Shown here: piece after piece, positions 1-13,554 of the stretch
How the letters are laid out: every line of letters begins with the position of its first letter
Position numbering within the stretch: position 1 is the stretch's first letter
Source: an uncultured Treponema sp.
GTDB taxonomy: Bacteria; Spirochaetota; Spirochaetia; Treponematales; Treponemataceae
DNA length: 13,554 nucleotides
Direction of reading: 5' to 3'
NCBI GenBank assembly: GCA_934667505.1
Contig: CAKULY010000039.1
Location: 1-13,554, forward strand
Notes under the pieces: generated by a model
What the model was told of the DNA's origin: nothing
Seen by the model: only the letters and a program-made list of their open reading frames with translations
The model's database searches: none
Position numbers and translations under genes: made by a program

Positions 1-3
1 AAT

Positions 4-759
4 ATGAAAGAAGAACTATTGGAAGCCATCTACGGCACAGTTGAGAGATTGGAGCAGAAAGTCGATGAACTTTCTGCCTCACCAAAGAATACAGAGGCGG
101 AAAGCACTCCAGTCTCTGTAAGTGTTAATATAAGCAAGCTTGAAAAAGCAATCCTTGCTATGGCTGTAAAAGAAGGGGAGTCTATTGACAAATTGGCAAG
201 ATTAAGAGAGGCTATCTGCATCTTTACCGACCTTACCAAGAAAGAAGCAAGTAACGGAGAACAGCGAAGCAAACTCTTGTTTGATGCAATTAATCAGGTG
301 AAACAAGAGCTGAATGCCACATCAAAAAATGTGCAGGACAAACTTCAGGCAATGGATAATACACCTCTGAAGAAAGTTGTGACTCACCGTTTTGAGCCAA
401 CCTCTAAGTATATTCTTCTTTTCGTCGTTGGCCTGGTTTTATCGCTTGTTTTCTCCATTTGGGGCAATCTCACCCAATGGCGAGAGCACCAAAATTGGGA
501 GGAGGCGGATTTGAAATATCGTGCCTTGCGAATGGTTCTCCCATCTGACGACCCGAACATTCGCTACATCGAAAAGAACTTCTCTGTATGCCGAGACGAA
601 AATGTAATAAATGATGTGAGAAATCGTGTCACTGTTTACGAGGATTCTATTCGTCGCCACCATGAAATGCTTGAAATGGCTGCTTACAAGGATAGCATGG
701 CTAACAAACTTTGGGAAGAATCCAAGGGAATCAAACGAATATTAGAAAACAGGAAGTGA
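4..759 (+). CDS. Single-pass membrane protein of unknown function, mobilisation-region-like
   Basis: This 251-residue protein has no catalytic motif that I recognise. Residues 1-30 are helical and charged, residues 45-115 are mostly helical, a hydrophobic segment at about 136-153 is a likely membrane helix, and a Trp- and charge-rich helical tail of about 100 residues follows. There is no N-terminal signal peptide, so the N-terminal half is probably cytoplasmic. The segment after the membrane helix (Trp-rich, with a DLKYRALRM stretch near 169-177) reminds me of small membrane proteins encoded beside relaxase or mobilisation genes in Bacteroides mobile elements; this is from memory and weak. 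The ATG at 4 lies at the window edge, so an earlier start cannot be excluded. It is the only plus-strand gene, converges on the large operon and ends before the shared terminator, so it is probably not part of the signalling set. Confidence 0.8.
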   Translation: MKEELLEAIYGTVERLEQKVDELSASPKNTEAESTPVSVSVNISKLEKAILAMAVKEGESIDKLARLREAICIFTDLTKKEASNGEQRSKLLFDAINQVKQELNATSKNVQDKLQAMDNTPLKKVVTHRFEPTSKYILLFVVGLVLSLVFSIWGNLTQWREHQNWEEADLKYRALRMVLPSDDPNIRYIEKNFSVCRDENVINDVRNRVTVYEDSIRRHHEMLEMAAYKDSMANKLWEESKGIKRILENRK

Positions 760-796
760 CCCAATAATAACCTCTCTCCTTGAATTGTCATAACAT

Positions 797-832
797 AAAA
801 AATGCTCCACATAAAAACGTGGAGCATTTTTT
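797..832. terminator. Bidirectional intrinsic terminator between convergent genes
   Basis: A perfect 14-bp inverted repeat (797-810 and 819-832) surrounds an 8-nt loop. The GC-rich core GCTCCAC/GTGGAGC is flanked by an A run on the left and a T run on the right, so each strand yields a hairpin followed by a U tract. It lies between the plus-strand gene ending at 759 and the minus-strand operon ending at 842, and should terminate both. Confidence 0.88.
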
Positions 833-841
833 ATAAATGAT

Positions 842-2620
842 TTAGAATGTATAAGCAACATTGAAAGCCCATTTGTTCATTCGTGTCTTATATCCATCAC
901 CAACATCTTGGTAACATTCATTATTTGTAATACCCTTTGAATAAGTTGCGCCTAAGGCAAAACCTTTAATTCGCATATTGAGTCCTATTTCTGCTGTCAT
1001 ATTCAAACGTTTTGGACCATAGATGTCATAACTATCAGTGTTGAACACTGGTTCCCCATAATAATCTGTTATGTCCTCATTATAGTCAGAATCATCAGCC
1101 TTATATGATGCTGCAATACCAATATTGAATCCGAGACCGCCATGTACCCACAATGCCACTTTGTTTCCAAATGGGAATCGGAACAAAGCATGAGCAGGTA
1201 TATAAATATTGTGCTCTTGGAAGCTACTCCAATCATAATCATCATTCGAAGATATATACATTTCGTAATAAACACCAGAGTAGAATCCAAGTCCAAACTT
1301 AAAGCAAGGATGCACACCGACACCTATCTGGAAACCACGCAACCACTTGCTGTCACCTTCAAACCACGCAGGAGACTCCTTTACTTTCTCACCATTTCCT
1401 GAAGTAACAATCTGTTTCTGAACATATCCAACAGAGATATCAACAGGAGTAGGACTATACTCTCTTTCCCAAGGCCATTGGAAATCCTTGCGTGTCTCTA
1501 CTGCCAACTGTATATCTGACGGCATATTAGCACTTACTTTGATAGATTTTGTTCTTGACTTTTGTCCATAGTAAGTTGCATAATACTTAAAAGTTTGACC
1601 TATAGGTCGGGTAACTTCATAGGAGTTTCCACTTACTACTACACCCTCGTCTGTATTTTTTAGCATATTATTGTTTTCAAAAACAGAAGCACTTGTACCA
1701 GCCTGCTTACCATTATACATTGGCGTAACAGTATAGGTCTTGGTATTATAGATAGTTTTGGTTGTATTTCCATGCAGTGTTATCATATTCTTCACAGCAT
1801 CAGGATTTCCTGGGAAATAAGCAATCACCTCGTATGCCTTTTCTGCAAGTTGCATATTAGGTCGGTAATCCATTTCCATTTCGCCATCTTTGATAACCAA
1901 TCGTGCCCCCTCTGGCTTTGTTTTTAAGTTGAGAGTGTATTTTGCTCTACTATCATGGGTGTAGATTTTTGTATCATCCTTTATATCTACAGTACCACGA
2001 ACACTTCCATCAGCAGCATATATAGTTGCTACATGGTCACCAGACGGAGCATTTTCTATCGTTATTCTACCATTGCTGTCGGCATAGTGCTTCTTCGTAT
2101 CTCCATTAATAACGGCGTAAGCACCAGGCAATTGTGTATCTATAAGAACAGGAGCGGGGTCACGAAGTACAAGACGATAGACTTTTCCTGCTTGCAAGCC
2201 ACCTTTCTTGTTACGAACTGTATATTTAGAAATTCCATATTCCGAGAAATTAACCAACACAGACTGATACAAATTTCCTTTAGGAACAATACGCAGGCTA
2301 TTACAATGCTGCTCTACCCAAATATAACTAGCATACCCACCTCCACCAGGAGATAACTTTCGCTCTATCGATTTTGCTGGTCTTGGGTCTGACGACTCCA
2401 CTTCCCCAGGCATAAAGACTTTCACCAAGGCAGAGTTTGCCAACTTTCCTGTGAAATTTGATGGTGTAGTGACATCAAAGTCACTCTTGTCTGCCTCAGC
2501 AAAAGAGACAATTTTCAATTCTCTTCCAGAAGCAGCTTGCTGTGCATTTGCTTCCATGCTAGAGAAGCCAACAGCTAACAGACCTATTGCCAAGGTCTTC
2601 ATTAAAAACGCTTTAATCAT
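842..2620 (-). CDS. PEGA-type outer-membrane beta-barrel protein
   Basis: The preferred start is the ATG at 2620 (592 residues); an upstream in-frame GTG at 2629 adds only three residues before the signal peptide. Residues 1-27 are a typical signal peptide ending near ANA. Residues 32-153 resemble the N-terminal domain of Bacteroides PEGA-containing envelope proteins, ending in GKVYRLVL. Beta-rich domains follow: one at about 155-220, a PEGA-like domain at about 228-285 with a KPEGARLVI core, and another at about 295-375. From about residue 395 to the end there are alternating aromatic strands (GFQIGVGVHP, FGLGFYSGVYYEMYI, ALFRFPF, GLGFNIGIAASY, AEIGLNMRIKGFALGATYSKG) ending in AYTF, typical of a small outer-membrane barrel with a terminal Phe. 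It is the last operon gene, 27 bp after its neighbour. Its likely role is the outer-membrane end of the system; ligand and partner are unknown. Confidence 0.85.
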   Translation of the reverse strand: MIKAFLMKTLAIGLLAVGFSSMEANAQQAASGRELKIVSFAEADKSDFDVTTPSNFTGKLANSALVKVFMPGEVESSDPRPAKSIERKLSPGGGGYASYIWVEQHCNSLRIVPKGNLYQSVLVNFSEYGISKYTVRNKKGGLQAGKVYRLVLRDPAPVLIDTQLPGAYAVINGDTKKHYADSNGRITIENAPSGDHVATIYAADGSVRGTVDIKDDTKIYTHDSRAKYTLNLKTKPEGARLVIKDGEMEMDYRPNMQLAEKAYEVIAYFPGNPDAVKNMITLHGNTTKTIYNTKTYTVTPMYNGKQAGTSASVFENNNMLKNTDEGVVVSGNSYEVTRPIGQTFKYYATYYGQKSRTKSIKVSANMPSDIQLAVETRKDFQWPWEREYSPTPVDISVGYVQKQIVTSGNGEKVKESPAWFEGDSKWLRGFQIGVGVHPCFKFGLGFYSGVYYEMYISSNDDYDWSSFQEHNIYIPAHALFRFPFGNKVALWVHGGLGFNIGIAASYKADDSDYNEDITDYYGEPVFNTDSYDIYGPKRLNMTAEIGLNMRIKGFALGATYSKGITNNECYQDVGDGYKTRMNKWAFNVAYTF

Positions 2621-2647
2621 AATACTCACTTTTTGTTTATAATCAGT

Positions 2648-3607
2648 TTATCTAAAATCATCTACCATTATGAAATCATCATCAGGTGTATCTTTAGGTT
2701 GCCAAGCTCTGACATGAATGACTGGAGGGTCTTCATTGAAATCCCAAAGCAGAAACAAATAACCAGTATCCTCATATTCCTTTCCGCTTTTGTTTTTACT
2801 CTTCCAATGCTGAATAAGGTTTACACCATAATAATTACTCATTGCTTCCGAATTAGCAGGCGATATCATTATCTCATCAAAAGAAACATCTATGTACTTA
2901 TTGTTTCTAAACAACATAGCCAAATTATTCAAGTACCCTTCCTTATCTTGAACCGTGTAGGTTGTCCTCTTTTTTATCTGTTGATTGAAGTCTCCCGATT
3001 CCTTACGTGTTTCCACCCTACCAGTTATGATGAGAGCATCATCGCTATAAATCTTTCTCAACGACTCCAAATCCTTCTCATTATAATAATTACGAAAATC
3101 CTCGACAAACTTCAAGATTTCGTTCTTTCGGCGCACATCATACACTTCCTGCTCTCTCTTTGCTACAGAAAGATGATTGTTCAAGAGAGCAAAGCCTACA
3201 CGTGTGACATTTCCCGATTTATCAAAAGAAATGGTCAACTCTCTTGTCTTCGGGTCTGTACAATCATCAGGTTGTCGAGTAACCGTCGCCTGAATACCTC
3301 GTGCTTGATAACCACTCGTTAGTCCATAGCAAATACTTTTAGCGTTGCTTTGACATACAAAACCGAAATTTTCCCACAACATATCAAGGCGTTCAGCAGC
3401 TTCCATTCCCACCTTTCCATTTAATTGTAAAGAACGCCCCTGCTCCGCTGCCTGATTTATCTCAGTCAGTAAGGCGGAAGCATTACGCTCCATTCTTGAT
3501 TTCAATGCTGCATTATAGATGCCATCTGTAAAATGGAATGAGACTTCTTGCGCCAAAATACTCACAGTCATGAGTACCCCCATAAAAACTAACAACAATT
3601 TTCTCAT
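2648..3607 (-). CDS. Exported protein with C-terminal NTF2-like domain
   Basis: This 319-residue protein begins with a clear signal peptide (residues 1-19, MRKLLLVFMG then an LAQ cleavage site) and is predicted to be periplasmic. Residues 20-160 form a mixed region of unknown fold with three Cys (85, 93, 116) that could form a disulfide. Residues about 162-302 match an NTF2-like/SnoaL-like fold: a long helix (ILKFVEDFRNYYNEKDLESL), SDDALIITG, YLNNLAMLFRNNKYIDVSFDEI, and the terminal strand pair GYLFLLWDF and VIHVRAWQP. I recognise this pattern from exported Bacteroides proteins. The domain usually binds small ligands or acts as a scaffold; no catalytic residues can be assigned. It starts 4 bp downstream of the preceding gene's stop and lies 27 bp upstream of the outer-membrane protein gene, so co-transcription is near certain. 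Confidence 0.82.
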   Translation of the reverse strand: MRKLLLVFMGVLMTVSILAQEVSFHFTDGIYNAALKSRMERNASALLTEINQAAEQGRSLQLNGKVGMEAAERLDMLWENFGFVCQSNAKSICYGLTSGYQARGIQATVTRQPDDCTDPKTRELTISFDKSGNVTRVGFALLNNHLSVAKREQEVYDVRRKNEILKFVEDFRNYYNEKDLESLRKIYSDDALIITGRVETRKESGDFNQQIKKRTTYTVQDKEGYLNNLAMLFRNNKYIDVSFDEIMISPANSEAMSNYYGVNLIQHWKSKNKSGKEYEDTGYLFLLWDFNEDPPVIHVRAWQPKDTPDDDFIMVDDFR

Positions 3608-3611
3608 ATCG

Positions 3612-4313
3612 CTATTTCTTTATTTTCTTCTTCAATTTATCCATGAAATCCTTTGGCAGTTCCTTTCCCATCAGTTGCCGAACATTTGATGTTGGAATAA
3701 ATAGCCATACCACCCCCTCAACAACAAGACCTTTATCTGCAACTTTCTTGATAGGCCAGGATAGATTTAGGACATGAAGCCATTTGTTCTCATTGTTGAA
3801 AAGAAATAAATCAACTTTCATCTCTTTCTTACCCATACCCTCTATGCCTACAAACATTTCATAGCCTTTGTTTCTACAAAAAGTCATCAATTGCTTGAAT
3901 TGAATGTTTACACTATCCTTTTGATAACGATACTTTTGAAAAGTCAACTTGATGCTACCATTAGGCAATTCCCTATTCGGTAGGAGCAACCGATTGGCAA
4001 TTGTCTCTTTAGGATATTTTGCATCACAAAGAGGAATAAAACTTTTGCCTTTACGCTCATAATACGTAGCAGTAGAAATACCGTCAACGATGTAAGTCTC
4101 TCCAGGATGCACATAATAATTTTCACCTTCCACACGACTCATTACCGTAGAATCATTCTTGATACGTGACAAAACATCCATCTTGGCAGCCATCTTCATC
4201 TGTTCGATGAAAGCATCCTCCATGGACTTACGCTTGGAATCAGTTTGTTGTGCCGAAGACACGGCACAACAGAACAGACTTATTGTCATAAATAATAGTA
4301 ATCGTCTCATCAT
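3612..4313 (-). CDS. Exported protein of unknown function
   Basis: This 233-residue protein has a signal peptide (about residues 1-21, MMRRLLLFMTISLFCCAVSSA) and no further membrane segment. Cys15 and Cys16 lie in its hydrophobic part, but the context does not look like a convincing lipobox. The mature part starts with a charged helical stretch (about 25-60) and continues with beta-rich sequence (about 65-205) and a Lys-rich helical tail (about 215-233). I do not recognise the family. The ATG at 4313 is separated by one base from the stop of the membrane kinase gene. A GGAG sequence just inside the end of that gene probably serves as its ribosome site, which suggests coupled translation. Its place between the membrane kinase and the NTF2-like protein suggests a periplasmic partner, for example of the kinase's external domain; this is inference. 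Confidence 0.8.
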   Translation of the reverse strand: MMRRLLLFMTISLFCCAVSSAQQTDSKRKSMEDAFIEQMKMAAKMDVLSRIKNDSTVMSRVEGENYYVHPGETYIVDGISTATYYERKGKSFIPLCDAKYPKETIANRLLLPNRELPNGSIKLTFQKYRYQKDSVNIQFKQLMTFCRNKGYEMFVGIEGMGKKEMKVDLFLFNNENKWLHVLNLSWPIKKVADKGLVVEGVVWLFIPTSNVRQLMGKELPKDFMDKLKKKIKK

Positions 4314-4314
4314 T

Positions 4315-5838
4315 TTATTCTCCTAACATGATTGTTTCTGTAGTTCCATCAGATTTATACCATTTGCCAAAACTCAGATGCCCATTGACATACGATCCTT
4401 CAACTTTATCTCCAGCCTCAGCAATACGCCCCTTAGGATCACGAGAGTCGATACGATGACTTGAAGAGAACCTCATTGTCCCCCTGCCATCAGGCTTTCC
4501 ACTCTTTATAGCTCCTTCCCAAGTTGCATATCCTAGAGAAAGAGTTCCTTGTCTAGCAGTACTGGACGGAGTTTCAACTTTTGGTGCAACTACCCTTACA
4601 GACTTAGGTTTTACTTTTGCGATTGCAGAACCTGTTTTTTTCTCTTCTTTAGTTACCACAACCTTCTTTTTTGTTGCCTCAGGCGATTTCGCAGGCGTCA
4701 CTTCCTTTACCACCTTAACAGTATTCCCCTTTGGTTGTTCTTCACGAGTTCCATTCCATACGAAGAATACAGCCAAAGCAAGAACTACAACAGCAGTCAA
4801 CCCAACTAAAGGTTTCTTCCACCAAGTTTTTGAAGCAATAGGCTCAGAATAGTTGACATGTTCATCTATTTCCTGCTTGCTTTCACTCTGAGTATTGCCA
4901 ATAGCTCCACTTACATGAGGATTGGTTGCCCTTGGATCACTCTTTTCACCTTTTACAGTGGAAGTTGCTTTCCCTTTCATGTTTGCGATGAGTTCTTCAA
5001 CGCATACCTCACCTTGTGAATCTATAACTTCCTTGGCTATTTTTTCCACTTGGTCAGCCCTAGCTCTATCCCAAGTTTCCTTTTCCAGACACCATCGCAT
5101 GATGTCATTGAGATTCTTAGACCATCCAGCACCAAGCAATGGTATCTCCGCCCCTTGGTTCATCATCACGCCACCCATACCAGAAAAGGGCAGTTCCCCT
5201 TCTGCAAGTTCATAGATAGATGCACCAAGAGACCATACATCACTTGCCAGAATGGGTTCTGGATTGGCAGAAAAACGTTCTGGTCCCATATAAGCTGGTG
5301 CACCAGCCTTCAAAGCCCGAGTCGATTGCTTGCTCATCGTATTGCGTATTCGCTTACTGATGCCAAAGTCTGTTATGAGGAAAGTTCCATCCGAAGCTAT
5401 CAGTACATTGTCCGGCTTGATGTCTTGATGGACTATAGGCTCAGGCTTGACATGGTGCAGATAGGCAAGTCCTGCTGCCACATCATGGATAAATCGCCAT
5501 ATTGTACGTTCATCTTCCGATGTCGGTCTGAGTGTACCAACCATATCACCAGCAGAACCTGAGTCACAAAACCTCATCGTCAGCCAAGGATAATCTTGCC
5601 ACACCCCAAAGTCCTTTGTCACCAATAGATTCGGATGTTCAAGACCAGCAGCTATACGGTATTCCTGTATAAACTCCTCACGGCCTTTGTGGTCAAGAGC
5701 CACATAAAACTTAATGGCTACATTTTCGTCCTTGGCTTTGTCATAGGCCAACCATACTTGCCCGAACGTACCACGTCCCTTGTACTCTTTCAGCACATAA
5801 CGACCATTAATTTCTTCACCTTGTTGTATCTCAACCAT
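4315..5838 (-). CDS. Membrane Ser/Thr protein kinase with external MORN-like repeats
   Basis: This 507-residue protein has a Hanks-type kinase domain at about 13-272. Visible motifs are the glycine loop GRGTFGQVW (21-29), ATP-anchoring Lys43 in VAIK, a probable helix-C Glu59, catalytic loop HQDIKPDN (137-144, Asp139), DFG (157-159), GPE in place of APE (185-187), Asp200 in SDVWSLG, and Arg258/260 near the end. All core catalytic residues are present, so activity is likely. Residues 290-340 are a linker, 343-361 a membrane helix, and 362-428 a Lys-, Val- and Thr-rich stalk outside the membrane. Residues 433-455 (GYATWEGAIKSGKPDGRGTM) and about 480-500 are MORN-like repeats. HQD replaces the usual HRD, so the activation-loop control of RD kinases may not apply. 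It starts 2 bp after the PP2C stop, a classic kinase-phosphatase pair. Confidence 0.92.
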   Translation of the reverse strand: MVEIQQGEEINGRYVLKEYKGRGTFGQVWLAYDKAKDENVAIKFYVALDHKGREEFIQEYRIAAGLEHPNLLVTKDFGVWQDYPWLTMRFCDSGSAGDMVGTLRPTSEDERTIWRFIHDVAAGLAYLHHVKPEPIVHQDIKPDNVLIASDGTFLITDFGISKRIRNTMSKQSTRALKAGAPAYMGPERFSANPEPILASDVWSLGASIYELAEGELPFSGMGGVMMNQGAEIPLLGAGWSKNLNDIMRWCLEKETWDRARADQVEKIAKEVIDSQGEVCVEELIANMKGKATSTVKGEKSDPRATNPHVSGAIGNTQSESKQEIDEHVNYSEPIASKTWWKKPLVGLTAVVVLALAVFFVWNGTREEQPKGNTVKVVKEVTPAKSPEATKKKVVVTKEEKKTGSAIAKVKPKSVRVVAPKVETPSSTARQGTLSLGYATWEGAIKSGKPDGRGTMRFSSSHRIDSRDPKGRIAEAGDKVEGSYVNGHLSFGKWYKSDGTTETIMLGE

Positions 5839-5840
5839 AG

Positions 5841-7274
5841 TTACTTGCTTTGTTCTTGTTTTTTCTTCACTGGTGTAACTTCGTCTTTATCGCTACCTTT
5901 GGCAGGAACAGGAGTCAGTTTGTCTTGACCATTTTCCATTGGAACCAACTTAAAGCCACCCGTCTTACTCGTTTTGGAAGGTTTGTTTTCTCCTTGTTTA
6001 GCGTCTTTCTTTCCGTCTTGTTGCTTCTTCTCCAACTGTACTGGTCGTTTTTTTTCGTTATGACTTTTATTCTCTGCTTTCTGAAGCTTCTTAACTTTAA
6101 TCTTCTTTTTTGGAAAATCAACATTCACCGTGTCAACTTTTTCCTTGACTTTTGTGGAATCTACAGACTCTACCTTAGATGGAGTTTCAACATTTTTCTT
6201 CCCTTTTCCATGAAAGTTCAATCCTGCAATCACACCACAGAGCAATAAGAAACAAAATACGGAAGCCAACACTATTTTTTTTCGTGAAACTCGAATCGTC
6301 AATCCATCAAAAGTTTTATTGAGTGGTTTTTCTTGGGGACTTGCTGAACCTACAATTCCCTTCGTTCTCTCTTTAGCCACACAATCACCTGCCCCAGAGC
6401 ATATTTTACAAAGTATGACAGTTACGTTGTCATACCAATCAGCCTTCTCTGCCGCTATCCACAGAGCCTCTCTACATTCACGAAGAGATTCTTGATGGTT
6501 TCTAATAATGTCTTCAAGATTATCACCAGGGTAAAGTTGTCCATTTTCATCATACGTTTTCTTGTCACGCAACACGCCACTCAAACCATCGCTACAAAGA
6601 AGGATGATATCATTATTGCACACTTTAAACAAGCGTGACTCTGGCTTTGCCTTTTGAGTCGTATCGCCAAGACTGCGAGTAACAATGTTTCCTTGCGGAT
6701 GCTCGAAAGTTTGCTCGTATGTAATGATGCCTTTGTTGGCTAGTTCCTGTACATAAGAGTGGTCTCTTGACAACGGTTCGATACCTGTTACTGGATTAAA
6801 ACGATACGCACGGCTATCACCAATCCAAGTTAGTGTCAACTCGCCGTTTACTATCCATGCCATAATGAGTGTAGAACCCATCCCTTCATGTTCGCTATTG
6901 CTCCGAGCATCCTCTTTGATACGATGGTCAGTCTCTCGAACCACCTTTTCCAAATAACGGCTACGGCTTTCATGGGTTGCAGCCAACTGTTCCGTTATCT
7001 TTCCTGGGGCAAAGAACTCAGCCACCGTGTCATGGGCTATCTGGGAGGCAACCTCTCCTGCATTCATGCCACCCATGCCATCGGCTACAGCCATCAGCAT
7101 ACCACAATCTGAAAGCAAGATATCTTCATCGGCAACCAAATGACTAGGAGTATTATCCCCTAGGTCATCATCTACATAATAGTTGTCCTCATTGCCTTCG
7201 AGAGGGGCATTCGGGGCGTACTTGCCTGCAGCATCCGTCCATGCCGCCATACGGAAAATAATATGCTCTGCCAT
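5841..7274 (-). CDS. PP2C-family Ser/Thr phosphatase with membrane anchor and Lys-rich tail
   Basis: This 477-residue protein has a PP2C/PPM domain at about 8-290. Metal-binding and family motifs are intact: NEDN (28-31), DGMGG (65-69), GMGSTL (131-136), GDSRAY (152-157), RDHS (170-173), SDG (228-230) and DN (282-283). It should be an Mn/Mg-dependent phosphatase that removes phosphate from Ser/Thr targets of the two operon kinases. Residues 333-351 form a single membrane helix, so the catalytic part is cytoplasmic and the tail of about 125 residues is outside. That tail is low-complexity, about a quarter Lys, and carries LTPV (453-456) and VTPV (466-469). Its start codon shares one base with the stop of the upstream gene (TAATG), indicating coupled translation. 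Confidence 0.93.
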   Translation of the reverse strand: MAEHIIFRMAAWTDAAGKYAPNAPLEGNEDNYYVDDDLGDNTPSHLVADEDILLSDCGMLMAVADGMGGMNAGEVASQIAHDTVAEFFAPGKITEQLAATHESRSRYLEKVVRETDHRIKEDARSNSEHEGMGSTLIMAWIVNGELTLTWIGDSRAYRFNPVTGIEPLSRDHSYVQELANKGIITYEQTFEHPQGNIVTRSLGDTTQKAKPESRLFKVCNNDIILLCSDGLSGVLRDKKTYDENGQLYPGDNLEDIIRNHQESLRECREALWIAAEKADWYDNVTVILCKICSGAGDCVAKERTKGIVGSASPQEKPLNKTFDGLTIRVSRKKIVLASVFCFLLLCGVIAGLNFHGKGKKNVETPSKVESVDSTKVKEKVDTVNVDFPKKKIKVKKLQKAENKSHNEKKRPVQLEKKQQDGKKDAKQGENKPSKTSKTGGFKLVPMENGQDKLTPVPAKGSDKDEVTPVKKKQEQSK

Positions 7275-8206
7275 TATTTCTTGCCTTTCTTGTTTTGTTT
7301 CTTATTGCCTTTCTTTACATAGACATCATCTTCAACAGGAGTCAAACTATCTTTAGTTACATTTGGCTCAACGTTACTTTCCTTTTGCAACCCATCATTT
7401 TCTTTTATGCCAACAAAAGGAAATGAAACATTCCATTTATCTTCCTTCTCTGTTATTATACCACAAAGCAAGAACTTCACTACACCTACACCTGTTACGC
7501 TTGGTACAATGAAAATACCGCCAAGGATATTTTTATCTTTTGGTGGCAACACACTTTCCTTTCCATCTGTTGCCACATTCAGTTCTTTTTCTATGTAAAC
7601 AAAAGACAACTTAGCCGTTTTATTCAAATCAGCATCCTTATCAGTATAAGCCCAAACTACCCATCCCTTTTGAACACCTTCTACTATATCATAATCCAAG
7701 CCTTTTCCTTTAAATATATTTGATTTAAAACAATAAACCTCTAAAGGGTTCATAGTCTCTTGCAGAGAATATGTTAGAGAATCATAGTCTGTTTTTTCCC
7801 CTTGTTCTGTATATTCTGATAAATATGGAACAGGCTTATACCCATCCCGATAACTATTAAACTTAGAGTTGTACTCCCAAGGTCTAACCGCTTTGTCCGT
7901 CAACAAGAAACCATCCCTCAACTTTACACCGAATGTGATTTCCGTACCGAACTCGTCATGGTTATTCAGTCCATATAATTCACCAGTCTTTTTATCGGCA
8001 ACTTGAAAACTCTGTCGTGAAAGGAAAAAAGCAGAACACACTGCATCTATCACTAAACCTTTATCCAAAGCTTGCCCTACATTATCTATCCCTTTCAATA
8101 GATCTTCACGGATGATTTGCCCAGGAATGACCTTTTGAGAATAAGAAAATGAAGCACATAAAAAACAAAAAAATAAAATAAAAAACTTTTTCATATCAAT
8201 TATCAT
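7274..8206 (-). CDS. Exported protein of unknown function with Lys-rich tail
   Basis: The coding region of 310 residues starts in an ATGA overlap with the stop of the protease gene. A second in-frame ATG four codons later (8194) gives a more conventional MKKFFILFF signal peptide, so either start is possible. The signal peptide ends near residue 23 (SYS). The mature part is mixed alpha/beta with many aromatic residues; a hydrophobic Gly/Val-rich stretch at about 228-251 looks more like beta strands than a membrane helix, but this is uncertain. Residues 275-310 are disordered and Lys-rich, with an LTPV motif (288-291) like that in the phosphatase tail. I do not recognise the family. Overlaps on both sides (4 bp with the protease, 1 bp with the phosphatase) suggest a close functional link, possibly as a periplasmic partner or substrate of the protease. 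Confidence 0.82.
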   Translation of the reverse strand: MIIDMKKFFILFFCFLCASFSYSQKVIPGQIIREDLLKGIDNVGQALDKGLVIDAVCSAFFLSRQSFQVADKKTGELYGLNNHDEFGTEITFGVKLRDGFLLTDKAVRPWEYNSKFNSYRDGYKPVPYLSEYTEQGEKTDYDSLTYSLQETMNPLEVYCFKSNIFKGKGLDYDIVEGVQKGWVVWAYTDKDADLNKTAKLSFVYIEKELNVATDGKESVLPPKDKNILGGIFIVPSVTGVGVVKFLLCGIITEKEDKWNVSFPFVGIKENDGLQKESNVEPNVTKDSLTPVEDDVYVKKGNKKQNKKGKK

Positions 8207-9738
8207 CTTAAATTACAAAGTGGAACAATACCTCCCATATGTTGTCCTGTACCAAAAGATACAATACCTATAGCCTTCGGCTTACCATTGTCATTATAGA
8301 AAACTGGACCTCCAGAATTACCATGTTCGTAATTATTACCCGTTATAAGGATAACTCCACCCTTTAACCCTCTACTGGATGTCTGGCAAGAACCATAAAG
8401 ACAAGAACCTCCATCTGCTTTCATTCCAAGCGGATAACCTAACACTTGAAGTTTTACCCCTGCAGGTAAAGAAGAAGACAAAGAAGCATCCCCAGGAATA
8501 TTTCCACTCTTGTTTGCTCTAGCATAAGCCCAATCGTTTCCTCCACCTGTGGAGACCCTTACTTTTATCTTGCCTTCCTCATCTATAGCCATGGTTCTTT
8601 CTTCACTCGTTGGCATCCTAAAGTTTGTAGATAGTAGTTTTATTTCATCCGTAGGAGAAGTAGCTAATATATAGGATACTAATTTTACTCCATTTTCTCC
8701 TGCCATACCAGACAACAAAAGAGCTTCGTGTGTATCGTCTTTCATTTTCGACACATATGACTTTAGAAAACTAGCAACATCGAATTTCCAACCTTCCACA
8801 CAATGCTTGGCTGTCACGAATCTTCCATCCGACAACAAGAAACCAGTACCTGTCCATCCTATATATCCGCCATCAGAAGTTTCCAATGGTATTCTCTGAC
8901 CATTATATACTGCCATCACTACAGCCTGAATAAAATATATATTCTTCTCATAAGCCTGTAAATTAGCAGCTTCTCCACCAGTACTACTTGTCCCAACATG
9001 AGTACCAGTTCCACCACGTACTACAACCGTTTTTCTTATTGGACGCTGTTTTAGCTTTAACAAAGAATCCAATCTTTTTTGTTCTTTGGCAGATTCTGCC
9101 ATAAGTTTCTCCAATTCTCCATTCTTACCTTTCAACGTTTCTAGTCTTTGTTGAGCATCAGCTATCAATCTCTCATATTCATTACCGCGGAGATAGCTCC
9201 ATGTTCCCAAACCACCTACAGATAGGACTAAAAGTATTGACAAAACTGCTATCGCATACTTATAAGGTCTCAAAGCTTGCTGTCCAAACAAAGATAGTCG
9301 GCGTGTAAGTCCAAGTGATCCTACCGTACCTTTCTTTCCTGCAGGAGTAATGAACCCCATTTTGGGACCATTCACAGAAAGTTGGATTTCATCACCATTC
9401 TGGAGATACCATTCTTTCTGGACTTGATGACCATTAAGGAATGTCGAATTGGTCTGCGACAACTGAACTAATTTCCAATTGTCCCCATCACGCACAATAG
9501 CTGCATGACGACGAGAAACTGTTGGAAACGATTCATCAAATCGAACTTGGCAAGTTGAAGCTCTTCCGAGTTCTATCTGGTCAACAATAATCTGCTGATT
9601 TTCACCAGTTTTGTGATACTTAGAAGAAATCTTGTGCTCCAAGATATAAAAACGACGGTCTGAGCCTAGCACAGACTGCACACCGGCTCCAATAGAGCCT
9701 TTGAGTGTTCGCTTATAGCGTTGAGTTGGTTGAGTCAT
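8203..9738 (-). CDS. FHA domain-membrane helix-trypsin-fold serine protease
   Basis: This 511-residue protein joins three modules. An N-terminal FHA domain (about 28-130) has LGR (57-59), SRRH (75-78) and NG (102-103), the usual phosphothreonine-binding positions. A membrane helix at about 160-181 is followed by a charged coiled-coil (about 186-228). A chymotrypsin-fold protease domain occupies about 262-511 with an intact triad: His311 in TAKHC, Asp402 in DWAYA and Ser475 in GNSGGP. With no signal peptide and the FHA domain expected to face the cytoplasm, the protease should be periplasmic. The residue six before the Ser is Asn469, not the Asp of true trypsin, so cleavage after Lys/Arg should not be assumed. 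Cys312, 446, 451 and 508 could form disulfides outside the cell membrane. There is no PDZ domain, unlike DegP/HtrA. The design suggests that cytoplasmic phospho-binding controls external proteolysis (inference). Confidence 0.93.
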   Translation of the reverse strand: MTQPTQRYKRTLKGSIGAGVQSVLGSDRRFYILEHKISSKYHKTGENQQIIVDQIELGRASTCQVRFDESFPTVSRRHAAIVRDGDNWKLVQLSQTNSTFLNGHQVQKEWYLQNGDEIQLSVNGPKMGFITPAGKKGTVGSLGLTRRLSLFGQQALRPYKYAIAVLSILLVLSVGGLGTWSYLRGNEYERLIADAQQRLETLKGKNGELEKLMAESAKEQKRLDSLLKLKQRPIRKTVVVRGGTGTHVGTSSTGGEAANLQAYEKNIYFIQAVVMAVYNGQRIPLETSDGGYIGWTGTGFLLSDGRFVTAKHCVEGWKFDVASFLKSYVSKMKDDTHEALLLSGMAGENGVKLVSYILATSPTDEIKLLSTNFRMPTSEERTMAIDEEGKIKVRVSTGGGNDWAYARANKSGNIPGDASLSSSLPAGVKLQVLGYPLGMKADGGSCLYGSCQTSSRGLKGGVILITGNNYEHGNSGGPVFYNDNGKPKAIGIVSFGTGQHMGGIVPLCNLR

Positions 9739-9751
9739 ATTTTTATTATTT

Positions 9752-11101
9752 TTAAGTGTCCCACTTATTTTTAAAAGAATACTTTCTAGAGTTTACTTTC
9801 GGATAACCTTCCACACGTAATTTAGTATCACCAATGGTTATGATGTCTCCCACTTGTAGCACAAAGCCATGACACCCCACTTCCGTGGAATTAACATAAG
9901 TACCATTCATACTATTTTTCCATTGCCGATTGCGCCATTGCCCATCGCGTATAATCCACTGTCCTGTTTCGGCATTCTGTTCCAAAGTACAATGACAACG
10001 AGAGATGTAAGCATTCAAGGTATCTTTTATCGGTATGGAATTGACAACTTCATCGTCCTCTCTTCCCATCGTCAGCAAACGGCATACACCATTTACCATA
10101 TCATCCAACCTATATATATTGCCATACTCTTCTCCTTGCATTATATGCAGTTGAATACCACTATCCCCTTGATTCCATGATTCAAACGAAGTTTTCAAGG
10201 TTGGCCGATAACCTTTTGCCTTAACAGACTGCGGCATTAGCGCCAGCACATCATCAACACTCTGAAGCCTTTCCTTGAAATTTGGTATCAAACAGCCTTC
10301 CACCATTTTCTCCCATTGGAGTCCATTTGGCACTTGTTGCAAAAGTGTTCGATTCCACATTCCCTTACGTCCTCGTTCCACATAGGCAGGCAAGTCGGCT
10401 TCCGTAGCACATTCACCGAATGGCAGCTCATAAGTAAGAAGTTGATACATCATGACACCAAAAGAAAATATGTCTGTAGTCGGAAGTACAGTAGCATTGC
10501 CTCTCCTTGGATTTATTTGCTCAGGAGGCATATAAGGAAATGTACCAAACTGTTGTTGTGGGATACCAAATATACCTCGTTGAGTAAGTCGATTGTTTTG
10601 GTCGCCTGATATTCCGAAATCAGTAAGTATCGCCGTTCCATTTTCTCGCATTAGGACGTTTTCTGGTTTCAAGTCACGATGAACCTTTCCTCGCCGATGC
10701 AAGTCACGAAGTCCATAAAGTACATCACGCCCTACCGCAGCAAAATCGACACTTTCCTTTTCGGCTGCTGTCATTAGGTCACCATAAGGACAATACTCCA
10801 TGACAATGTAAGGGTTACCACCAACTTGCCCTTTTGTATAAGAATGTACGAGATAGTTGCTTTCAATATGACCTGTCTCATACTCCATATCGAAACGTTT
10901 CAACAGTTCCTCTCGTTCTGCGGATGGCGACTCCCATAACTTCAGGAGTTTCAAGGCATATACCTTTCCATCATTCCCATTTACTTTATACACGCAGCCG
11001 AAAGTTCCTGCACCAAGCATTTTTTCCACAAGATAATCATTGCCAATTCTGTCACCAGAACAAAATTCACAACGTTCACATTGTATGTAATGACTGCTCA
11101 T
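9752..11101 (-). CDS. Cytoplasmic Ser/Thr protein kinase with C-terminal FHA domain
   Basis: This 449-residue protein has a Hanks-type kinase domain at about 22-290: glycine loop GAGTFGCVY (30-38), Lys51 in YALK, catalytic loop HRDLKPEN (141-148, Asp143), DFG (161-163), PPE (192-194) in place of APE, Asp210 before FSFGV, and Arg278. It is an RD-type kinase and should be active. A C-terminal FHA domain (about 315-430) shows GR (346-347), SRCH (367-370) and NGTYVN (399-404). No membrane helix is present. The N-terminus carries C8xxC11xxC14, a Cys-rich knuckle placed directly before the kinase fold. The kinase with its own FHA domain could bind autophosphorylated partners such as the membrane kinase or the FHA protease. 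It starts 26 bp after the zinc-ribbon FHA gene and is followed 13 bp later by the FHA protease. Confidence 0.93.
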   Translation of the reverse strand: MSSHYIQCERCEFCSGDRIGNDYLVEKMLGAGTFGCVYKVNGNDGKVYALKLLKLWESPSAEREELLKRFDMEYETGHIESNYLVHSYTKGQVGGNPYIVMEYCPYGDLMTAAEKESVDFAAVGRDVLYGLRDLHRRGKVHRDLKPENVLMRENGTAILTDFGISGDQNNRLTQRGIFGIPQQQFGTFPYMPPEQINPRRGNATVLPTTDIFSFGVMMYQLLTYELPFGECATEADLPAYVERGRKGMWNRTLLQQVPNGLQWEKMVEGCLIPNFKERLQSVDDVLALMPQSVKAKGYRPTLKTSFESWNQGDSGIQLHIMQGEEYGNIYRLDDMVNGVCRLLTMGREDDEVVNSIPIKDTLNAYISRCHCTLEQNAETGQWIIRDGQWRNRQWKNSMNGTYVNSTEVGCHGFVLQVGDIITIGDTKLRVEGYPKVNSRKYSFKNKWDT

Positions 11102-11127
11102 ATATATAATAAGGTGAAAATTCCAAA

Positions 11128-11898
11128 CTAATCTCTGAACTCGAAAAGACGGTTGCCTAAAGCAATAACATCTCCAGACTGCAACTTAGTCTTTCTGGAA
11201 ACACGAATCATCGTAGAGTGCTGGTCGCTTAAATCCTCGATATACCAATCTTTCCCATCATTGGTAAGCACTGCTTGCTCACGAGACGTTATAGATTGGT
11301 TGTTAGGGTCTGTGTTCGCACGATTCAAAACGATTCTTTGCCCCGAATATGAAATAGGAGCATATTCCGTATTTTCACGAGACCAAGGCATTGGCTTTAA
11401 AGAACAGAAATCATTACCTTGTGGATTATCCCAAGCATTGACAGTTCCACGCATAGTTAATGGTTGCCCACATGAAGGACAGAATTTTGCACTTCGCAGC
11501 ACATCCGCTCCACATTTCGGACACTGCTTATTTCCTGCCTGTGACTTCTGATAAATGCTACTAACTTCCTGTTGCATTCTCTCACATTGTTCTCGATTTC
11601 GAGAAGTTCCACACTGTGGGCAAATGTTCATTACAGGTGACAAGCTGTAACCACAATTACGGCAAACATCATTTTGATTTTCTGTACTTCCGCTATTACT
11701 CTCAGGGGAAAGATTACCACCAAAAGCAACTGCCTCTCTTAATGTAGAACGAAGTGGAGAAGACGCTTCTTGATTATAGTCATTTTGTTGAATAGATTTA
11801 TCTGCGTCAAAGTTATTTTGACTACTTAGGGCTGAACCACATCTTTCACAGCAAACAACTCCATCAGGATTTTGCCATCCACAATTATTACATCTCAT
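11128..11898 (-). CDS. Triple zinc-ribbon protein with C-terminal FHA-like domain
   Basis: This 256-residue soluble protein has three CxxC...CxxC zinc ribbons: C3/C6 with C17/C20, C79/C82 with C93/C96, and C126/C129 with C140/C143. The last (CPKCGADVLRSAKFCPSCG) is a textbook double-zinc-ribbon unit. Residues about 183-256 form an FHA-like fold: NR (192-193), SR (205-206), WYIEDLSDQHST (218-229) and SGDVIALGNRLFEF (241-254). The usual GR is NR, the SRxH His is Gln208, and the NG position is QH, so phosphothreonine binding may be weakened or altered. The likely role is as an adaptor that links zinc-ribbon contacts (protein or nucleic acid) to phospho-signalling. It lies 33 bp after the antiterminator gene and 26 bp before the kinase. 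Confidence 0.88.
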   Translation of the reverse strand: MRCNNCGWQNPDGVVCCERCGSALSSQNNFDADKSIQQNDYNQEASSPLRSTLREAVAFGGNLSPESNSGSTENQNDVCRNCGYSLSPVMNICPQCGTSRNREQCERMQQEVSSIYQKSQAGNKQCPKCGADVLRSAKFCPSCGQPLTMRGTVNAWDNPQGNDFCSLKPMPWSRENTEYAPISYSGQRIVLNRANTDPNNQSITSREQAVLTNDGKDWYIEDLSDQHSTMIRVSRKTKLQSGDVIALGNRLFEFRD

Positions 11899-11931
11899 AT
11901 GTTATTGTTTTATTTATATATTTTAAAATTA

Positions 11932-12669
11932 TCAGACAATTGAATCTAAATAAGGGGTTGGAATATAGGCTGTTACAGCAGTAACCAAACCATTCATTAT
12001 TACAGCTACTCTCTGTTGCCCTTTATAGCGTGCCACTGTTCCTATAACTCCAGCAAATGCTCCTTTGGTAATACGCACCAATTGCCCTGTCTCGAATTTT
12101 GGTATTTCCTCATTAGAAATTATAATGTCATCAACTTCAGCTGCACATACTATCTTCAAACTTTCCATCTGATAGTTTGGAACTATTATTGGTGTTTTCT
12201 CAATTTTACAACCAACGTGAATATAACGATAATAAAAACGGAGAAATGGAAGGTTTACATTGTCATAAACATAAGTCTTAATTTCTTCTTCGGTGCCATA
12301 AGCGAAAAAAATATTGGGTAAACGAGATTCTGTAATAATTTTGCGCTTACCTTTGACAAGTTTAACAACATCCTTGGTGGGATAGAAAGCAGTAACACCT
12401 CTTGCTACCATATAATCATATGCTTTCTTCTCTCTACCATATGTAGTGCGAAGTGCATACCAATGAGGAACACTTTTTTCTTTGCTACAAATACGCTTAG
12501 AAGTAATTCCTGAAAAGGCACTCTTGGTGGACACCCCTGTTTGTGAACTCGTAGATGAAACAATGTTTCGAGCTTCGGGGAGGGCATTGGATGTAAGTCC
12601 AACGCAGGGAGGCTTTCTTACTCCTCCTTCAGCGCAAACATCTTGCGATGTTCGTTCATAGATTTCCAT
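11932..12669 (-). CDS. UpxY-like NusG-family transcription antiterminator
   Basis: This 245-residue protein is a specialised NusG paralogue. An N-terminal extension (1-67, Ser/Thr-rich, probably disordered) precedes an NGN domain at about 68-178 (HWYALRTTYGREKKAYDYM, then TAFYPTKDVVKLVKGKRK, SRLPNIFFAYGT and the LRFYYRY region). A KOW domain follows at about 195-222 (GQLVRITKGAFAGVIGTVAR), with a short beta tail after it. In the UpxY family of Bacteroides capsule loci, such first genes prevent premature termination in their own leader so that the long operon is transcribed. Here it is likewise the first gene of a ten-gene operon and lies 46 bp downstream of a strong intrinsic terminator, so the same role is likely. 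The 67-residue extension is long for a NusG paralogue, and a later start cannot be excluded. No capsule or glycosyltransferase genes are in the window. Confidence 0.92.
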   Translation of the reverse strand: MEIYERTSQDVCAEGGVRKPPCVGLTSNALPEARNIVSSTSSQTGVSTKSAFSGITSKRICSKEKSVPHWYALRTTYGREKKAYDYMVARGVTAFYPTKDVVKLVKGKRKIITESRLPNIFFAYGTEEEIKTYVYDNVNLPFLRFYYRYIHVGCKIEKTPIIVPNYQMESLKIVCAAEVDDIIISNEEIPKFETGQLVRITKGAFAGVIGTVARYKGQQRVAVIMNGLVTAVTAYIPTPYLDSIV

Positions 12670-12715
12670 ATCGGTGTTAACTTATTCTAAGCAGAACCCA
12701 GTTAATAATAGGCAC

Positions 12716-12751
12716 AAAAAAGCGTGGAATCGTCCTGTTGTCCATTCCACG
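12716..12751 (-). terminator. Leader intrinsic terminator upstream of the antiterminator gene
   Basis: On the minus strand an 8-bp stem (CGTGGAAT pairing with ATTCCACG, 12751-12744 and 12730-12723) encloses a 13-nt loop. One C and a run of six T (12721-12716) follow. This is a strong Rho-independent terminator placed between the operon promoter and the first gene. Transcription of the operon must read through it, which is the natural target for the NusG-like protein. The stem is GC-poor towards the loop, so partial readthrough is plausible. Confidence 0.78.
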
Positions 12752-13147
12752 AACTGAGGCTCTTGCATTGCCTATCTAAGTCGAACAGACAACGTCAGAG
12801 CCCACGCCGATATGAAAATCACTCCGTGAAGAGCCTATATAAAACTTTTGATTGCGCCCAACAAGGTACAATCTAAGCTTACAAGGTCTCCACGAGATTG
12901 ATATAATCACACCCGGGACATCTACCGTTGACCATATTCAAGACTTAGATACTGAGAGGTTGCAAGATTTCAGTTCGTCTTAAACACAGCGTCAGATAAA
13001 CGCCTTTTATATGTCTTGACTCTCTTCCCACCCATTGCCCGCTTATAACCAAGAAAGTTGTTTGGACTTCTCAGCTTTCAGCTCGGCGTTGGCTGTCTGT
13101 TTGTCGGTATTGAGAAATACTCAAATAGGCATACAGACTAAAGAGCC
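12752..13147 (-). ncRNA. Structured leader RNA (attenuator-type 5' UTR)
   Basis: This leader of about 400 nt runs between the promoter and the terminator, with no credible reading frame. Visible minus-strand hairpins are: (1) 13138-13095, GTCTGT/ACAGAC closing an inner TATT(T)GAG/CTCAATA stem; (2) 12983-12938, TTAAGAC/GTCTTGA with an inner ACTGA/TCAGT stem; (3) 12802-12758, GGCTCT/AGAGCC enclosing CGTTGTCT/AGGCAATG after a 2x2 internal loop. The segment AAGAGCC (12764-12758) could instead pair with GGCTCTT at 12835-12829 or at 13147-13141, so competing folds are possible. It does not resemble tmRNA, RNase P RNA or a named riboswitch that I know. The placement matches the long leaders upstream of UpxY-type genes, which are needed for antitermination. 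Confidence 0.6.
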
Positions 13148-13151
13148 GATG

Positions 13152-13185
13152 CAAATTTAAGTATTTTTCTTGAAATACGGACAAT
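13152..13185 (-). promoter_or_regulatory. Bacteroides-type promoter of the signalling operon
   Basis: Read on the minus strand, TAAATTTG (13159-13152) matches the Bacteroides -7 consensus TAnnTTTG exactly. An ATTG (13185-13182) lies 22 bp upstream as a plausible but imperfect -33 element (consensus TTTG). Transcription would start near 13145, just before the hairpin-rich leader. I see no long inverted repeats directly flanking it, so the phase-variable inversion known from capsule promoters is not supported here. Confidence 0.55.
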
Positions 13186-13289
13186 GTTTTGCCGTCTTTC
13201 TTGTCAGCAAAATGCGATTTTAACATTTCGATGGCATTTAGTATCGTATTTAAAAGTATGTGGTTAAGAAGAGAACAAAGCGGGCATTG

Positions 13290-13320
13290 TAATATTGTTG
13301 ATTTTTTTACAACGATATTA
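13290..13320. repeat. Imperfect inverted repeat, 11-bp arms with 9-bp spacer
   Basis: TAATATTGTTG (13290-13300) and CAACGATATTA (13310-13320) are inverted copies with one mismatch, separated by an AT-only spacer of 9 bp. The size fits an operator for a dimeric regulator or the core site of a tyrosine recombinase. It lies about 135 bp upstream of the operon start site. No recombinase gene is in the window. Confidence 0.5.
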
Positions 13321-13356
13321 ACCCTATTGAATATTCGAATGGAGAGAAAAACTTAA

Positions 13357-13370
13357 GATTTTATAAAATC
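13357..13370. repeat. Perfect 14-bp palindrome
   Basis: GATTTTATAAAATC is fully self-complementary. It lies between the imperfect inverted repeat and the rightward promoter candidate. It could be a binding site for a dimeric regulator, but palindromes of this AT-rich type also arise by chance. Confidence 0.35.
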
Positions 13371-13382
13371 AGAGCAGAATAT

Positions 13383-13412
13383 GTTGTTTTTCAAAAAATA
13401 GATATAACTTTG
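13383..13412 (+). promoter_or_regulatory. Candidate rightward Bacteroides-type promoter
   Basis: TAACTTTG (13405-13412) matches the -7 consensus TAnnTTTG, and GTTG (13383-13386) lies 18 bp upstream as a possible -33 element. It would transcribe out of the right edge of the window. At least 135 bp downstream lack a gene, so any product begins beyond the window or is a non-coding RNA. Confidence 0.42.
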
Positions 13413-13450
13413 CACTCGTAACCAAAGCGTTCTTTGTATATTGCAAAGTT
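13406..13450. repeat. 9-bp inverted repeat overlapping the rightward -7 box
   Basis: AACTTTGCA (13406-13414) and TGCAAAGTT (13442-13450) are perfect inverted copies 27 bp apart, and the left arm overlaps the -7 element of the rightward promoter candidate. It could be an operator pair or the base of a hairpin at the transcript start. Confidence 0.4.
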
Positions 13451-13490
13451 GTGAAAGAAAAAGAATATAGCTCGTTTCTAAATCGTTAGC

Positions 13491-13553
13491 AGTCACATTC
13501 TTTAAAATACTCAACTCGCTGATATTCAATAAATAAAAGAATTTACTGTGACT
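13491..13553. repeat. 7-bp inverted repeat at the right edge
   Basis: AGTCACA (13491-13497) and TGTGACT (13547-13553) are perfect inverted arms 49 bp apart. Inside them, ATTCTTT and AAAGAAT-like stretches continue the symmetry after a short gap. It may be a weak hairpin or a paired binding site; a chance origin cannot be excluded. Confidence 0.25.
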
Positions 13554-13554
13554 C

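Follow-up and report, generated by a model that had tools for sequence, protein, structure and literature searches.

The TerY-P triad consists of a vWA protein, a kinase and a PP2C phosphatase. KKP operons encode a PP2C phosphatase together with two Ser/Thr kinases, of which one is fused to FHA and the other to a cold-shock domain (PMC11341870). In the UpxY-controlled capsule operons of Bacteroides, upxY is the first gene behind a leader with a terminator, as described in two reports (PMC7593976 and PMC7819879). Here, we analyzed a stretch of 13,554 nucleotides (nt) deposited as an uncultured Treponema sp. (assembly GCA_934667505.1, contig CAKULY010000039.1, positions 1 to 13,554; referred to below as the window). 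It carries a leftward operon (842 to 12669) of ten open reading frames (ORFs) on a single strand, in which two kinases, a PP2C phosphatase and a membrane-anchored FHA-protease are encoded behind an UpxY-family gene and a conserved structured leader. The closest sequence found was a contig of a Prevotellaceae metagenome-assembled genome (MAG), JAUNIZ010000111.1, with 99% identity at the protease gene; the same contig, in genome G001, matched 11.35 kb at 97.7%. Judged from sequence, the gene set is a dedicated accessory system of Bacteroidota with a patchy distribution.

The system shares with KKP its accessory nature and the combination of two Ser/Thr kinases, one of them (g8) FHA-fused, with a PP2C phosphatase in one operon. 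However, PF00313 (cold-shock) matched none of the ten operon proteins. Whereas KKP has the phosphatase followed by two kinases, the order here is kinase-FHA, FHA-protease, g6, PP2C, kinase, and the membrane FHA-protease, a predicted pseudoprotease, a zinc-ribbon/FHA protein and exported proteins are additions relative to KKP as far as the available description extends. TerY-P likewise uses a kinase and a PP2C phosphatase as an accessory module, but no vWA match was present in the ten operon proteins, which have the FHA-protease instead. The protease itself, g7, resembles DegS/HtrA in its single membrane anchor and its trypsin-like domain with a His-Asp-Ser triad; it differs in carrying an FHA domain on the cytoplasmic side, in having no PDZ domain by Pfam and in being co-encoded with kinases. 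As in the capsule operons, an NF033644-matching upxY comes first, behind a conserved leader with a terminator-like hairpin and a T tract, but the window is not a capsule locus and the leader family also precedes operons without upxY. RfaH and ops are paralleled by a NusG paralogue, the leader location and an ops-like box, whereas the RNA of the window leader is folded and has a second possible pairing at the terminator. A likeness to Zorya ZorA/ZorB is confined to four related loci with a MotA/TolQ-family protein and a coiled-coil partner; ZorA matches were weak (L020, L021 and L056; best, 1.8e-7), and none was obtained in the window proteins scanned. Membership in a described defence system was considered and rejected, as the PADLOC matches cover kinase, MotA/TolQ-type, coiled-coil and trypsin stretches common to many families. 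A further study describes conflict systems that draw on kinase, PP2C, zinc-ribbon or trypsin components, none of which, in the part consulted, combines them as here (PMC7159879). Among candidate RNA motifs from human microbiomes, none recognisable as the leader was present in the part of the report consulted, its supplements not being searched (PMC8040213). The first-pass annotation of the window, made from its letters alone, knew of no named system with this content, and none with the same gene set was found in the full-text searches made of the Creative Commons-licensed PubMed Central literature.

Composition and conservation of the gene set

All ten ORFs lie on the reverse strand, separated in order of transcription by 33, 26, 13, -4, -1, 2, 1, 4 and 18 nt. 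The first is g10 (11932 to 12669), a UpxY-family NusG paralogue that matches NF033644 at 134 bits against a cutoff of 100. It is followed by g9 (11128 to 11898), with zinc ribbons and a degenerate FHA domain; g8 (9752 to 11101), a Ser/Thr kinase with a C-terminal FHA domain and no predicted transmembrane helix; g7 (8203 to 9738), in which an FHA domain, a transmembrane helix (residues 162 to 180) and a trypsin-like protease domain are joined; g6 (7274 to 8206), an exported protein of 310 amino acids; g5 (5841 to 7274), a PP2C phosphatase with one transmembrane helix; and g4 (4315 to 5838), a second Ser/Thr kinase with an HQD motif and a transmembrane helix at residues 343 to 361. The exported proteins g3 and g2 and the exported barrel protein g1 complete the operon, and g9, g8, g7 and g5 constitute its core. 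Pfam identified Pkinase in two proteins, PP2C in one and FHA in three, along with Trypsin and zinc ribbons. Together with the ORF coordinates and gaps, these matches agree with the first-pass description of two kinases, a PP2C phosphatase and an FHA-linked membrane protease in a tightly spaced leftward operon. The ten-gene content also held, with all ORFs in the span given, except that the tenth, upxY, had been left unnamed.

Genomes were searched at an E value of 1e-15 with A1, an alignment of eight FHA-proteases, and matches were obtained in 21 of 398 nearest-genus, 12 of 393 order and 3 of 395 phylum genomes, sets that overlap. Annotation of the match neighbourhoods with profiles from the window genes gave 36 loci, the window included, with L052 being the remainder of the L051 contig. 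Zinc-ribbon/FHA, FHA-protease, PP2C and at least one kinase gene occurred together in 32 of the 36, spanning 12 families. Two or more operon-strand kinase ORFs were present in 29 of these 32, and a single one was present in L021, L048 and L050; the kinase-FHA gene is split into two ORFs in L020, and no intact ORF for it was seen in L096. Outside the 32 are L051/L052, a system copy with its FHA-protease gene broken by a stop codon; L056, without zinc-ribbon/FHA and FHA-kinase genes; and L097 (G1102) and L098 (G930), which are different loci, so that genuine systems are found in 19 of the 398 genus genomes. Under a strict motif label, zinc-ribbon/FHA, kinase-FHA and FHA-protease were strictly consecutive in 24 of 37 fetched stretches, and in several of the others the order is rotated, the kinase is split or a channel pair is inserted. 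G001 and G1165 have two divergent system copies apiece. The recurrence of one gene set in largely the same order, patchily distributed, bears out the expectation of co-occurring homologues on which the first-pass proposal of a dedicated accessory system depended.

Residue checks in the window and in relatives confirmed that the catalytic motifs of both kinases, the phosphatase and the protease are intact. Among 27 kinase-FHA relatives of g8, selected by length and a DGQW motif, the K/H/R/D/N/D catalytic residues were kept in all, as were the Ser and His of the FHA domain. The E/D residues of PP2C were kept in 32/32 relatives and K/H/D/N/D in 47/47 of the other kinases, 39 of which have HQD; g4 is accordingly of the non-RD type. 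In g7, His312, Asp402 and Ser475 are all present, and a full triad is kept in 99 of 156 proteases. The FHA domain of g9 has Gln where His is expected in 27 of 31 relatives (His in 4), so that a scaffold role is likelier for g9 than the reading of phosphothreonine. Three FHA readers had been proposed; three proteins do contain the domain, but with that of g9 degenerate, only those of g7 and g8 look able to bind phosphothreonine. One further stand-alone FHA protein was detected by Pfam within the system in L054, L087, L088 and L096.

The structure model of g6 has a chymotrypsin fold without catalytic residues, and HtrA-type proteases ranked first in comparisons with this model, with viral main proteases interspersed. 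On this model, g6 is predicted to be an exported chymotrypsin-fold pseudoprotease. A clade lacking both the protease triad and g6 (L023, L024, L081 to L086, L089, L090 and L092) retains the FHA domain, the kinases and the phosphatase; there, the triad-less protease domain probably only binds or senses. In L053, an additional exported trypsin-type protease is encoded.

The structured leader and its relation to UpxY

A structured leader element (12704 to 12814, reverse strand) precedes the operon and was also found in L117 to L146 and L155 to L168; in Bacteroidales it stands ahead of numerous operons unrelated to this one. It starts with box 2, the exact 16-mer CATATCGGCGTGGGCT (12799 to 12814, reverse strand), and comprises, on the same strand, a hairpin, H1 (12758 to 12802), and a terminator-like hairpin with a T tract (12716 to 12751), the stem of which ends 53 nt before upxY. 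Folding of the 149-nt stretch that holds both hairpins was better than that of shuffles (z = -3.4; 0/200). In an alignment of 32 leaders, from which L146 was dropped as it departs after CGCTT, the two helices of H1 were paired in 97.5% and 98.0% of cells; hairpin and terminator together were paired in 95.8%, with changes on both sides in 5 of 20 pairs. An alternative pairing, K (12737 to 12793, reverse strand), joins the 5' strand of the hairpin (12787 to 12793) to the terminator loop (12737 to 12743); it was paired in 224/224 cells, and 3 of its 7 pairs show changes on both sides. Since K shares a strand with the hairpin, the two are mutually exclusive, or K is a pseudoknot with the terminator. 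In 22 further leaders, which excluded L161 (the same place as the L047 leader) and L147 to L149 (loci already used or the counterpart of the window), 139 of the 154 K cells were paired, where shuffling of rows gave a mean of 136.1 (1/1,000 as high), so the independent support for K is modest. Both K strands are one base shorter in L166, with pairing kept, and further pair types in K and the terminator did not exceed shuffles (498/500 as high).

In simple scans for promoters and terminators, the numbers found were close to or lower than in shuffles, and the leader terminator was missed because its loop is too long for such scans. A hand-written hairpin scan found a stem of at least 8 with at least 4 G-C pairs in 38 of 200 mononucleotide shuffles of the leader and was not significant alone; the case for a leader terminator rests on conservation and covariation. 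Nothing in Rfam 15 reached the gathering score over the window leader (best, 14.2 bits against 50), and only tRNAs did so in 13 other leader loci.

The exact box 2 16-mer occurred in 86 of 398 genus genomes (reversed control, 0), and among the matches listed, UpxY lay directly behind it in 9 of 31 loci examined, window included. A leader model built on the 32 leaders, K not included, found the element in 20 of 198 order genomes at an E value of 0.001, at no more than 9 places per genome. With this model, the leader was found directly before the kinase/FHA-protease operon, and co-oriented with it, in 8 of the 36 loci (the window, L018, L024, L047, L091, L093, L095 and L096); L047 belongs to another family. 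The distance to the first gene was 23 to 69 nt in seven of these and 202 nt in L093. An ORF followed the leader in sense in 34/43 cases and in antisense in 3/43, against 780/1,608 random sense positions; more telling than this count, the ORF started 35 to 44 or 58 to 73 nt behind the leader in 27 of the 34. Ten proteins encoded behind leaders or behind UpxY were compared with Pfam: seven matched (tubulin-like, WG repeat, LRR, C39 peptidase, RDD, FHA and MBOAT) and three did not.

Farther upstream, a Bacteroidales-type -7 promoter box, TAAATTTG, lies on the reverse strand at 13152 to 13159, 490 nt before upxY. It fits TAnnTTTG, the Bacteroidales -7 consensus, and agrees with the transcript start at about 13145 that had been predicted from the letters. 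Box 1, CAACGGTAGATGTCC (12916 to 12930, reverse strand), contains CGGTAG..TG and resembles the RfaH ops element; it was present in 10 of 11 UpxY-linked leaders examined and in 8 of 22 examined without such a link. Upstream of five other upxY genes, the same hairpin was found at the same distance in L111 and L113 and farther away in L114, with letters changed on both stem sides; no hairpin was seen in the L112 and L116 regions. By eye, a related UpxY (41%) and leader in L114 head another accessory operon with a tubulin-like protein, and in L116 the gene cluster headed by a UpxY relative is of the fatty-acid/polyketide type.

At L152 (G001:C316) in the nearest MAG, leader and window agree at 98% as far as the terminator (CACGCTT), beyond which the sequence is unrelated, and at L017 (G001:C114) the upstream side of g9 differs, with UpxY not seen there. 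This break is possibly a recombination junction or an assembly break; a similar one follows CGCTT in L146. An invertible promoter was considered and set aside, as the single 12-nt inverted pair in 12400 to 13554, 233 nt apart, is too short for such a claim. An exact leader-hairpin search of viral contigs returned nothing.

Exported companions and surroundings of the operon

The last gene, g1 (842 to 2629, reverse strand), encodes an exported protein with tandem beta domains (PEGA in relatives) and a predicted eight-stranded outer-membrane barrel. Its structure model has eight long C-terminal strands (predicted local distance difference test score, 87; predicted template-modelling score, 0.44), for which Ail and OmpX were the best Foldseek matches, in keeping with the barrel named in the first pass; 93 relatives were found in the protein database at an E value of 1e-5 among 7,997 candidates scored. 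The exported protein g2 (2648 to 3607, reverse strand; 319 amino acids) is very weakly NTF2-like (E = 0.073, below the cutoff), and g3 (3612 to 4313, reverse strand; 233 amino acids) has no Pfam match. Both have relatives in one other locus, L090 (42% for g2, distant for g3), and UpxY and the g1 barrel have none in the other 35 loci. We regard UpxY, the barrel and the two exported proteins as mostly local additions. Exported companions differ from locus to locus: BACON-barrel proteins unrelated to g1 were identified in L018, L019, L047 and L091 by Pfam and in L095 by profile. In L020, L021, L055 and L056, a MotA/TolQ-family protein (PF01618 in 4/4) and a coiled-coil partner with a short membrane segment stand beside the FHA-protease.

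The operon is closed by a terminator-like bidirectional hairpin (795 to 834, both strands) with fully paired 16-nt arms, beyond which a convergent gene (4 to 759) encodes a coiled-coil membrane protein without a family match above cutoff. Phage or plasmid cargo was rejected as an origin, as the FHA-protease had no match in plasmid or phage records; in viral contigs, 56 pattern matches yielded zero confirmed cases. The operon may be part of an integrative element.

A proposed phosphorylation-gated protease and alternative explanations

The best-supported reading of the locus is an envelope-spanning phosphorylation/proteolysis system under attenuation control, and we read it as a kinase-gated periplasmic protease or sensor that would be switched on by antitermination. 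That the accessory system links a membrane-anchored periplasmic protease to a kinase/phosphatase switch in the cytoplasm we consider an even call. Transcription would start near 13150 and usually stop at the leader terminator; UpxY would let polymerase through and, being encoded behind that terminator, would feed back on its own operon. The kinases would mark their own threonines or those of the zinc-ribbon scaffold with phosphate, which PP2C would remove. The intact FHA domains of the kinase and the protease would then dock on the phosphothreonines to form a membrane complex, the assembly of which may gate the periplasmic protease; g6 may restrain or activate it, and the co-encoded surface proteins may be targets or inputs. 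A relay from the cytoplasm to the outer membrane, as the first-pass annotation envisaged, gained no support: phosphate is not expected past the inner membrane, and the barrel and UpxY are without relatives in the other loci.

Several observations weigh against the gated-protease reading. UpxY was found in 1 of the 36 system loci, and 7 of the 8 leader-bearing operons have no UpxY in view. No leader was detected at the operon head in 28 of the 36 loci even at an E value of 10, some contigs being cut, and two weak leader-model matches among those loci lie elsewhere than the operon head. The profile comparison of g6 with the g7 protease was weak (probability, 8%; E = 0.004), and the best Foldseek E value for g6 was 1.4e-3, with none below 1e-3. 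All dead-protease loci fall into one clade (11 rows, 100/100), and the association of g6 with the triad therefore counts as a single event; a statistic assuming independent events (hypergeometric, 1.9e-6), from which L097 and L098 had been excluded as intact-triad, g6-less loci outside the system, was dropped because the clade is one lineage. In addition, system loci L050, L055 and L056 have an intact triad yet no recognisable g6.

The locus could instead work from the outside in, a possibility that we consider clearly the weaker but a serious one. DegS senses misfolded porins; here, the trypsin-like domain, g6 and surface proteins would sense envelope damage or a ligand and signal through FHA docking to the kinases, with proteolysis secondary. 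An entire clade that keeps the fold, FHA domain, kinases and PP2C without the catalytic triad would suit such a sensor, as would the membrane anchors of kinase g4 and PP2C and the variable exported companions, but 99 of the 156 proteases retain the full triad and g7 has no PDZ domain by Pfam. Eukaryote-like kinases in ordinary envelope housekeeping of the PknB/PstP/FhaB type, with the protease a neighbour by chance, are very improbable: although the domain families are common and the NCBIfam PknB, Stp1 and FhaB models match below their cutoffs, the patchy presence in genus, order and phylum genomes, the two divergent copies in G001 and G1165, and the recurrence of the gene set with a fused FHA-protease argue otherwise.

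Only a little more probable is a KKP-like phage defence or toxin-antitoxin function, in which unrestrained kinases would be toxic, PP2C would be the antidote and infection would tip the balance. Two kinases, one FHA-fused, with a PP2C phosphatase are indeed KKP components (PMC11341870), the distribution is patchy and the kinases match PADLOC families, including mad6 and PD-T4-6. These matches, however, span a kinase domain that many families share. A cold-shock-fused kinase is absent, the gene order differs, membrane and exported parts are not described for KKP in the part of that study consulted, and the FHA-protease was found in zero phage records and zero viral contigs.

Beyond the gated-protease reading of the locus, we hold a wider proposal at slightly less than an even chance. 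The leader would be an undescribed attenuator RNA family, with a terminator and, in competition with the upstream hairpin, a covarying pairing. NusG paralogues would act on it in cis and in trans to switch on, across Bacteroidales, variable surface and signalling operons as one regulon. The kinase/FHA-protease system would recur as a member of this regulon and would itself represent a new way of gating periplasmic proteolysis by phosphorylation, in which an active protease is paired with a pseudoprotease. Hanks kinases tied by a conserved gene set, through an FHA domain and one membrane helix, to a periplasmic protease would lead directly from phosphorylation to envelope proteolysis, and the natural dead-protease versions offer a ready test of the role of the protease domain. 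The shared leader RNA would likewise give a handle on the choice of accessory surface and signalling operons, which has so far been studied mainly for capsules.

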